This document shows positions 11,773 to 12,951 of a stretch of 64,000 bases of DNA, one piece after another. The DNA comes from Microbacterium suwonense (GTDB lineage: Bacteria > Actinomycetota > Actinomycetes > Actinomycetales > Microbacteriaceae). The translations under genes and the position numbers were made by a program. The notes under the pieces are model-generated. The model searched no databases, was not told the origin of the DNA, and saw nothing but the letters and a program-made list of their open reading frames with translations. Each line of letters opens with the position of its first letter. Position 1 is the first letter of the stretch. The stretch lies in the NCBI RefSeq assembly GCF_030296555.1, contig NZ_AP027728.1:2604001-2668000 (forward strand). Reading direction: 5' to 3'.

Positions 11773-11784
11773 GCAGTCGCTTTC

Positions 11785-11820
11785 AGAAGGGGCGAGGATC
11801 TTCGGATCCTCGCCCCTTCT
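11785..11820 (+). terminator. terminator of rpmB-rpmG-rpsN
   Basis: A perfect 16-bp stem (AGAAGGGGCGAGGATC and its complement) with a TTCG tetraloop at 11801-11804 lies 12 bases after the rpsN stop. The tail is CTGTGTTCC, with only weak T richness. Confidence 0.85.
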
Positions 11821-11858
11821 GTGTTCCTCGTGATGCTGTGCATCCCGCGCGCTCGATC

Positions 11859-11932
11859 TGCAGGACTTCGCATGAAATGCAGGATGCTTCCTGGCATCCG
11901 TTCCTGTGTTTCGTGCGATCTCCTGCGTTTCG
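11859..11932. repeat. 74-bp palindromic element, copy 1
   Basis: This is identical over 74 bases to 12878-12951, in the same orientation. Each copy is an imperfect palindrome. The arm 11860-11884 (from GCAGGACTTCGCA) pairs with 11902-11926 (ending GATCTCCTGC) at 20 of 25 positions. A nested GGATGC/GCATCC hairpin sits at 11882-11899. Together the copies bracket the nuclease-like gene at 12036-12866. The element looks like a REP-type or small non-autonomous mobile repeat. Confidence 0.9.
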
Positions 11933-12035
11933 GATGCTGTGACCAGCCCTGCACAATCGCACGTGTCGCCGACTTGTGCACAGATGCCGTGCTGGTGGTG
12001 CGAGCGTGCGCTCCCGCGAGAGCAGACTCTTGCGC

Positions 12036-12866
12036 ATGGACCCCGTGAAAGAGCTGCGGCGACGAGGCGGGATCGCGCGAACCCGAACGCTTCTCGACGC
12101 CGGTGTATCGGCCTACGCCCTTCGCCGTGCGAAGCAAGCCGGGATGATCTTCCGGCCGCGAAACGGCTGGGTGGCGGTGAAGGATGCTGACTGGCTGGCT
12201 CTCGGTGCCGTGCGTAGAGGACTGGTGCTCAGCTGCCTGACGGTCGCAGAGCGCCGAGGTCTGTGGGTTCCCGAGAAGGGCAACTGGCACGTCGTCGCCC
12301 CGCGTCACGCCGGCCGGATCCAGGTGCCCCAGCGCACGGTCGTGCACTGGTCCGCGCCGATCGTGCCACGAGAGCCGGATGCCGTCGAGGACGATCTGCC
12401 CAACGCACTGGCCCTGGTGGCGCAGTGTCAGCCGTTCGAGACCGCGCTGATCGTGTGGGAGTCGGCGCTGAACAGGAACCTCATCGATGCGCAATCGATG
12501 GCCCGGCTTCCTCTTCCGGCGGCGGCGCGCGACGTGCTCGCCCGTGCTCGCCCCTTCGCGGATTCGGGTCTGGAGACGATCGTCGTGCATCGCCTGCGGT
12601 GGCTGAACGTCCCGATGCTGCCGCAGGCGTGGGTTCTCGGACATCGTGTGGACCTGCTGATCGGCGAGCGCCTGGTGATCCAGATCGACGGTGCGACGCA
12701 CACGGGAGCCCAGCGCACGAGCGACATCGAGCACGATGCGCAGCTCGATCTGCGTGGCTATCACGTGCTTCGCTTCAGCTACGAGCAGATCATGGAGCAC
12801 TGGGAACAGGTGCAGGCCGTCATCACCGAGGCCGTCGCCCAGGGCCTGCACCGTGCTCCGCGATGA
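12036..12866 (+). CDS. AbiEi-like winged helix plus DUF559 nuclease-fold protein
   Basis: This 276-residue protein has an N-terminal helix-turn-helix like the AbiEi-type domain (ELRRRGGIARTRTLLDAG, GMIFRPRNGWVAV, ~1-55). Its C-terminal domain is DUF559-like, of the Vsr/PD-(D/E)xK nuclease fold (VDLLIGERLVIQIDGATH, then DLRGYHVLRFSYEQI, ~205-265). In the core, Asp and QxD are seen where many relatives have D and ExD, so catalysis is uncertain. The ATG lies seven bases after CAGACT, a possible leaderless promoter. The gene is enclosed by two identical 74-bp palindromic repeats, with no partner toxin gene. The function is not established; a nuclease acting on the flanking palindromes is a hypothesis. 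Confidence 0.75.
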   Translation: MDPVKELRRRGGIARTRTLLDAGVSAYALRRAKQAGMIFRPRNGWVAVKDADWLALGAVRRGLVLSCLTVAERRGLWVPEKGNWHVVAPRHAGRIQVPQRTVVHWSAPIVPREPDAVEDDLPNALALVAQCQPFETALIVWESALNRNLIDAQSMARLPLPAAARDVLARARPFADSGLETIVVHRLRWLNVPMLPQAWVLGHRVDLLIGERLVIQIDGATHTGAQRTSDIEHDAQLDLRGYHVLRFSYEQIMEHWEQVQAVITEAVAQGLHRAPR

Positions 12867-12877
12867 CGCTCCCCGTT

Positions 12878-12951
12878 TGCAGGACTTCGCATGAAATGCA
12901 GGATGCTTCCTGGCATCCGTTCCTGTGTTTCGTGCGATCTCCTGCGTTTCG
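12878..12951. repeat. 74-bp palindromic element, copy 2
   Basis: This is an exact direct copy of 11859-11932, starting 12 bases after the stop of the DUF559 gene. Flanking bases differ on both sides, so the repeated unit is 74 bases long. The start-to-start distance between copies is 1019 bases. Confidence 0.9.

Follow-up and report, generated by a model that had tools for sequence, protein, structure and literature searches.

What is a lone nuclease-like gene doing between two identical palindromes? The question is raised by a window of 64,000 nucleotides from Microbacterium suwonense (assembly GCF_030296555.1, contig NZ_AP027728.1, positions 2,604,001 to 2,668,000 of the forward strand). 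To our knowledge, the REP-RAYT transposases are the only enzymes whose genes are known to lie between palindromes of their own. The product of this gene was expected to join a DUF559 nuclease-like domain to a region resembling AbiEi, the antitoxin that neutralises its cognate AbiEii nucleotidyltransferase toxin in an operon. The original prediction linked nuclease and palindromes, either as a new class of palindrome-associated endonuclease unit or as a domesticated nuclease acting on these repeats.

Layout of the locus

The unit lies between rpsN, with its terminator, and the HU gene, in the order palindrome, gene, palindrome (Table 1). The names rpsN and HU, like tsaD and rimI below, were read off the translations and do not come from a family search. 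The two palindrome copies are identical even through the loop, and each of their four arms holds two boxes at a distance of 19 bp. As single-stranded DNA the palindrome folds computationally into one long imperfect hairpin (-21.5 kcal/mol, z -5.8), and as RNA it reaches -42 kcal/mol (z -7.6); none of 200 shuffles folded as well. With up to 3 mismatches allowed, the 26-nt palindrome arm occurs twice in the window, compared with no occurrence in 100 shuffles. The exact direct 74-bp repeats claimed at the outset, and their placement between rpsN with its terminator (a 17-bp stem) and HU, are borne out.

Table 1. The locus and its parts, numbered from the first nucleotide of the window.
Feature	Position	Strand	Details
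rpsN terminator hairpin (neighbour, outside the unit)	11784..11821	+	17-bp perfect inverted repeat
Upstream palindrome	11859..11932	+	74 bp, imperfect
Boxes of the upstream palindrome	GCAGGA at 11860, 11879; TCCTGT at 11902; TCCTGC at 11921		19-bp spacing per arm
Two CACA boxes, CTGCACAA ... TTGTGCACAG	11949..11983	+	between palindrome and start codon; read by eye
AbiEi-like/DUF559 predicted nuclease gene	12036..12866	+	276 aa
Predicted AbiEi-antitoxin-like DNA-binding region with winged helix	12036..12551	+	residues 1-172
Predicted Vsr/EDxHD-type nuclease domain	12564..12848	+	residues 177-271; E180, D206, D218, H233, D234
Downstream palindrome	12878..12951	+	identical to upstream copy, direct orientation
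Boxes of the downstream palindrome	12879, 12898, 12921, 12940

The cores of the two CACA boxes in the window are 28 bp apart, which resembles a 28-29 bp pattern upstream of many relatives; the boxes themselves give no match to the search pattern used for the family. That pattern (CTCCACAG or CTGCACA, then a TCCACAG-like box) occurs at 29/97 of the loci analysed below, on the gene strand and at most 150 bp upstream; at 26 of these 29 loci the starts of the two boxes are 28-29 bp apart. It was found at 0/97 loci on the opposite strand, at 0/97 downstream and at 1/97 further upstream. CACA boxes are also seen at a Tsukamurella plasmid locus (L256). We take some of these boxes to resemble DnaA boxes.

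The predicted protein

The window protein matches DUF559 (2.9e-9) and AbiEi_4 (2.7e-6), both past the Pfam cut-off, and its remaining Pfam match, MTES_1575, is below cut-off. Neither the Pfam search nor the predicted fold gave a match to a transposase, including the IS200/IS605-type tyrosine (HUH) enzymes. An AbiEi-HTH/DUF559 gene without a transposase is what had been claimed, and both parts of that claim hold.

The structure is predicted with a pLDDT of 95.8, as an AbiEi module followed by a Vsr-like nuclease. In this model residues 1-172 superpose on the Streptococcus agalactiae AbiEi antitoxin, and both the AbiEi winged helix and the C-terminal domain are present. The nearest solved structure to the modelled catalytic domain is the homing endonuclease I-Bth0305I, and the predicted Vsr-like fold carries the E, D and HD active-site residues. 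D206, D218 and D230 are conserved in 85/85 alignment rows, E180 and D234 in 84/85, and H233 in 64/85. E180, D206, H233 and D234 probably correspond to the residues of the EDxHD motif, whose name we take from the available portions of PMC6083498 and PMC3943268. The gene is under purifying selection (dN/dS 0.14-0.25).

Bracketing across the genus

Five DUF559 genes were found in this genome (DUF559 search, E up to 1e-3), and a search with the window protein returned the identical set: the window gene and four paralogues (E 1e-3). All five are bracketed. Each flanking pair has a different sequence, and two of the pairs are weak: the paralogues L031 and L032 have strong flank scores of 150 and 116, and L029 and L030 have scores of 67 and 70, the former of which does not reach 69, the 99th-percentile line. 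Four named Microbacterium genomes have orthologues (4 loci) that are bracketed as well, by palindromes that differ across species and agree within each.

Bracketing is also general in our sample of the genus. We built a family profile from nine proteins and searched 59 genus genomes, one per species. The family is present in 58, with up to 10 genes per genome among the matches listed; G022 is the only genome of the 59 without a match at E 1e-15. This large group of genes is annotated, among 120 listed of 1780 matches, only under names such as 'AbiEi family antitoxin domain-containing', 'DUF559', 'endonuclease domain-containing' and 'very-short-patch-repair endonuclease'. We analysed 98 loci, comprising the 4 paralogues, the 4 named orthologues and 90 from the genus search; these 90 were 30 taken directly from that search, the window gene included, and 60 picked by hand (40 from the upper and 20 from the middle part of the matches listed). 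As only listed matches were drawn on, the sample leans towards close relatives. Exclusion of L069 for its missing downstream flank left 97 loci, among which we kept L038, which has the scores of L033 and is probably from the same species.

Comparison of the upstream and downstream 300-bp flanks gave a median score of 89 for the 97 loci versus 37 for 970 mismatched pairs. The 95th percentile of this control is exceeded by 82/97 loci and its 99th by 72/97; 25/97 fail the latter test. A same-genome control of 575 pairs of sequence windows had a median of 42, a 99th percentile of 75 and a maximum of 88, with 12/575 at 70 or more; against it, 64/97 loci score above 75 and 50/97 above 88. When the ten loci that make or repeat rows of the profile are left out, 63/87 still exceed 69 and 56/87 exceed 75. 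The orientation of 72 pairs is clearly direct in 40, clearly inverted in 4 and ambiguous in 28. The downstream palindrome lies a median of 24 bp past the stop codon (43 loci).

Design of the palindromes

A hairpin score of at least 12 was reached by 99/194 flanks, compared with a median of 7, a 95th percentile of 11 and a 99th of 18 for 384 control windows. These 99 hairpins, which include some terminators such as the one upstream in our window, have a median arm of 24 nt, loop of 17 and span of 68. By a strict ungapped hairpin score, only 14/97 loci have a flank above 18, the control's 99th percentile.

The arms have an internal period. Autocorrelation within arms is 0.48 at 18 bp and 0.51 at 19 bp, and lies within 0.23-0.34 for every remaining spacing between 5 and 26 bp. 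Among the 198 arms scored, 113 have a strong internal repeat, and its period is 18 or 19 in 86 of them; for shuffled arms the figure is 5/40. We could assign a period to 43 elements (18 in 21, 19 in 18, 16 in 3 and 20 in 1), and those with two or more scored arms agree on it in 31 cases and disagree in 5. On the protein tree the 18/19 period changes 6 times over 38 elements, with four elements of other periods and the repeat L038 left out, compared with a shuffled mean of 12.8 and minimum of 7 (0/500 shuffles as low). The palindromes thus share a design: two boxes separated by a spacer lead into the loop, and the reverse complement of this arm follows. The box is private to its gene, and the box spacing of 18 or 19 bp follows the protein tree.

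The two palindromes of a pair also change together. In 68/75 same-site comparisons of orthologous loci, a palindrome is closer to its partner at the same locus (median 85) than to the palindromes of the other genome (median 53). These comparisons (protein identity at least 0.6, among 71 loci with a flank score of at least 70, under a loose same-site rule) share loci and hence are not independent. The pattern is one of concerted evolution.

Copies away from the gene

Palindromes of these families also occur on their own. The window palindrome occupies 6 places in this genome (17/17 candidates scored), two of them flanking the gene. The four further near-full-length copies are 81-87% identical to it and, judged by the lists of open reading frames, lie between or just upstream of genes; one is between tsaD and rimI and overlaps the end of an open frame. 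Elsewhere in the genus the window palindrome was found only in G030, where two copies surround the orthologue and there is none elsewhere in the genome; the search found none in the other 57 genomes. The result that would have spoken against the link, a palindrome common genome-wide and not enriched near DUF559 genes, was not seen: 2/59 genomes have it, both with the gene.

We traced a second palindrome family, that of L086, whose gene was seen only in G031 and G038 of the 59 genomes. It occupies at least 8 places in G031 and at least 9 in G038, two of which flank the gene in each; these are lower bounds, as 15/30 and 15/28 candidates were scored (up to 15 per genome). G000, G057 and G001 yielded a single copy each, that of G001 being partial; no family gene among those listed adjoins any of the three. 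In 54 of the other 57 genomes no copy was found. Across the two families and 59 genomes, gene-distant copies therefore occur in 3/4 gene-bearing genomes (4, 6 and 7 copies counted), and three other genomes have one copy each. We could read neither a target duplication nor a clean junction of an insertion.

By eye, the tsaD-rimI site of G031 (L196) holds a palindrome of different sequence where this genome has its own copy.

The rpsN site

We located rpsN in 59/59 genus genomes, and in 8 of them a family gene follows it on the same strand, within the 1 to 1.5 kb examined. The family genes at rpsN, including the window gene, form a clade of 11 rows. The expectation that genes at this site keep their repeats stands for 8 of the 11, whose two flanking palindromes match (scores 84 to 151); it fails at L044 (G001), which has the upstream palindrome and no matching downstream one, and the two other flanks are incomplete or unreadable (at L069 the contig edge falls inside the matching half, and the downstream flank of L067 could not be read). 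Because the family gene at rpsN behaves as one clade, its mobility would be slow. A domesticated nuclease, as had been suggested, would fit both this clade and the purifying selection.

In G048 a family gene lies near rpsN on the opposite strand and belongs to another clade, possibly a second, independent arrival at the site. Two similar hairpins lie near this opposite-strand gene (L101, L237). At L043 (G004), an rpsN-adjacent family gene has one internal TAG stop, yet its flanking palindromes match (score 122).

Gene-less rpsN sites with one clear palindrome exist in two genomes: G027, between rpsN and HU, and G014, which has no HU in the examined stretch. The palindrome of G014 best matches the gene-bearing rpsN stretches of G057, G038, G053, G004 and G031 (scores 68 to 55); it scores 56 against another G014 stretch, L205, and the next best is 47. 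That of G027 has no like among the gene-flanking palindromes compared (best scores 47 to 45). In the rpsN-HU stretch of G036 (L138, score 47) we read by eye a sequence like the left arm of the G027 palindrome, with a decayed right arm. Possible solo palindromes at further gene-less sites form long hairpins in G013, G029, G012 and G043 and shorter ones in G042 and G032; at most gene-less rpsN sites no palindrome was seen. A site with one palindrome and no gene would fit loss through recombination between direct repeats, and a pre-insertion state would look the same.

Beyond the genus

At family level, 104/149 genomes and 58/78 genera have a family match; in a phylum-wide draw the match rate was 3/197 genomes, this genome among them. 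For loci outside the genus (31 loci, one dropped because tblastn did not find it) the flank effect is present and weaker, with a median of 58 versus 35 for the control; 17/30 exceed the 95th percentile and 11/30 the 99th, several of these 11 having low-complexity flanks by eye. Two Tsukamurella plasmid genes fail the flank score (L256, 36; L257, 37). At L257 similar hairpin arms are visible by eye on both sides; the downstream arm overlaps the end of the annotated gene and so escapes the flank score.

Discussion

The explanation that we favour, at about even confidence, is a two-part element: a gene for an AbiEi-EDxHD/Vsr fusion, bracketed by palindromes that the fusion protein would recognise and cut or nick, with repair homogenising and spreading them. 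Each palindrome offers four repeated boxes to which the AbiEi-like part would bind, and it is at these boxes that the nuclease part would cut or nick. If a second copy of the palindrome served as template for repair of the break, the flanking copies would stay alike and solo palindromes would occasionally be seeded elsewhere, and recombination between the direct palindromes would lose or gain the gene, leaving one palindrome. Repair from another copy, as proposed here, would explain the identical loops, the concerted change, the rare distant copies and the one-palindrome sites. The original link between nuclease and palindromes has thus gained from the bracketing of most sampled relatives, the concerted pairs, the concentration of copies in gene-bearing genomes and the gene-less rpsN sites with one palindrome; we infer the cutting or nicking itself. 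The geometry known for AbiEi sites, which comes close to that of these palindromes, and the long target of dimeric I-Bth0305I, both described below, also count in favour of this reading.

Several findings weaken this two-part reading. Gene-distant copies are few. G030 has the gene and no distant copies, the solo palindrome of G027 is unmatched, and L044 has a single palindrome. It is weakened further because 25/97 loci fail the flank test, strict hairpins are few, no junction is readable and mobility is slow. Moreover, a donor whose palindromes are both intact would be a target of its own enzyme, unless cleavage depended on some condition, which also counts against it.

The main rival holds that the palindromes are operators. 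The AbiEi-like part would repress its own gene from the upstream copy, the downstream copy would be a second operator or a boundary to the neighbouring gene, and the nuclease would act elsewhere, for example in defence or repair. There is a precedent: the available portions of PMC7319586 describe AbiEi proteins whose binding sites are two 23-bp inverted repeats with 3 or 13 bp between them, and an S. agalactiae antitoxin, the one on which residues 1-172 superpose, that represses its own operon. Arm length and spacer here are similar to those of AbiEi sites, L044 has the upstream palindrome only, and plain autoregulation would also fit AbiEi-type binding to inverted repeats. An operator, however, does not call for a palindrome just after the stop codon, for distant copies in three of four gene-bearing genomes or for palindromes kept at gene-less sites, and selection on binding alone would not require copies that can be identical through the loop. 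We consider this rival possible, though unlikely.

It is improbable that some other enzyme spreads the palindromes and that the family gene settles beside them or is captured by chance. Each gene has a box and a spacing of its own, spacing tracks the protein tree, paired copies evolve together, and for the two families no copy was found in 57 and in 54 of 57 genomes without a seen cognate gene; all of this speaks against a foreign enzyme, for which one can cite the solo palindromes without an adjacent family gene and, by eye, the different palindrome at tsaD-rimI in another species. Still less probable is a strict free-standing homing endonuclease that cuts the gene-less allele at its solo palindrome, whereupon repair of the break would copy the gene into it: the likeness to I-Bth0305I, the one-palindrome gene-less sites and the mostly direct pairs would suit it, but an occupied allele still has both its sites intact and hence lacks immunity, and dispersed copies at unrelated loci are unexpected of site-specific homing.

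The cutting-and-repair element that we favour recalls known systems in parts. According to the available portions of PMC2817692 and PMC3116915, REPs flank the RAYT genes and coevolve with them, and further REP copies are scattered elsewhere. The likeness is a single enzyme gene bracketed by two private palindromes that change together, with extra copies outside genes. The enzyme here, however, is a predicted AbiEi-nuclease fusion, whereas RAYT is a tyrosine (HUH) transposase. The clear pairs here are mostly direct (40 to 4), whereas the portions available report that the REPs on either side of a RAYT gene are always inverted. The palindromes here carry four spaced boxes over about 70 nt, and copies number fewer than ten where counted (partly lower bounds), whereas in the same portions REPs usually exceed 100 copies, although some are tabulated with few. 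We ruled out a REP-RAYT system on the missing tyrosine (HUH) transposase, the mostly direct pairs and the low copy number.

With AbiEi systems the locus shares the AbiEi-like fold of residues 1-172 and, as the likely sites of binding, pairs of inverted repeats that are about 23-24 bp long. It differs in that the palindrome also lies downstream and dispersed and in the fused nuclease domain, and the neighbours of the window gene are rpsN and HU. With I-Bth0305I and Vsr it shares the predicted Vsr-like fold and the E, D and HD residues. It differs from EDxHD homing enzymes and Vsr in being free-standing between rpsN and HU, in its AbiEi-like DNA-binding part and in that the occupied allele keeps intact target-like palindromes. 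In the available portions of PMC3943268, I-Bth0305I is a dimer on a target of nearly 60 bp.

More tentatively, and at somewhat less than even confidence, we propose that Microbacteriaceae, and probably other actinobacteria too, have a new class of palindrome units that propagate themselves. The fusion nuclease would read a private four-box palindrome, cut it and spread or homogenise it. Box sequence and the 18/19-bp spacing would change in step with the protein, and the gene too would spread by break repair. Among the best-ranked matches in the open-licence literature searched, we found none that describes palindromes on both sides of a DUF559 or AbiEi gene; the unit may be new.

If the proposal is true, a second, unrelated enzyme would share the palindrome-bracketed layout and the arrangement would have arisen more than once. 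The family would then parallel REP-RAYT with an enzyme that is no transposase, and it would provide a natural collection of nucleases whose paired targets are diverse. Its dozens of natural enzyme-target pairs would allow tests of how DNA recognition changes, and the palindromes suggest a specific substrate for a large, vaguely annotated group of genes.
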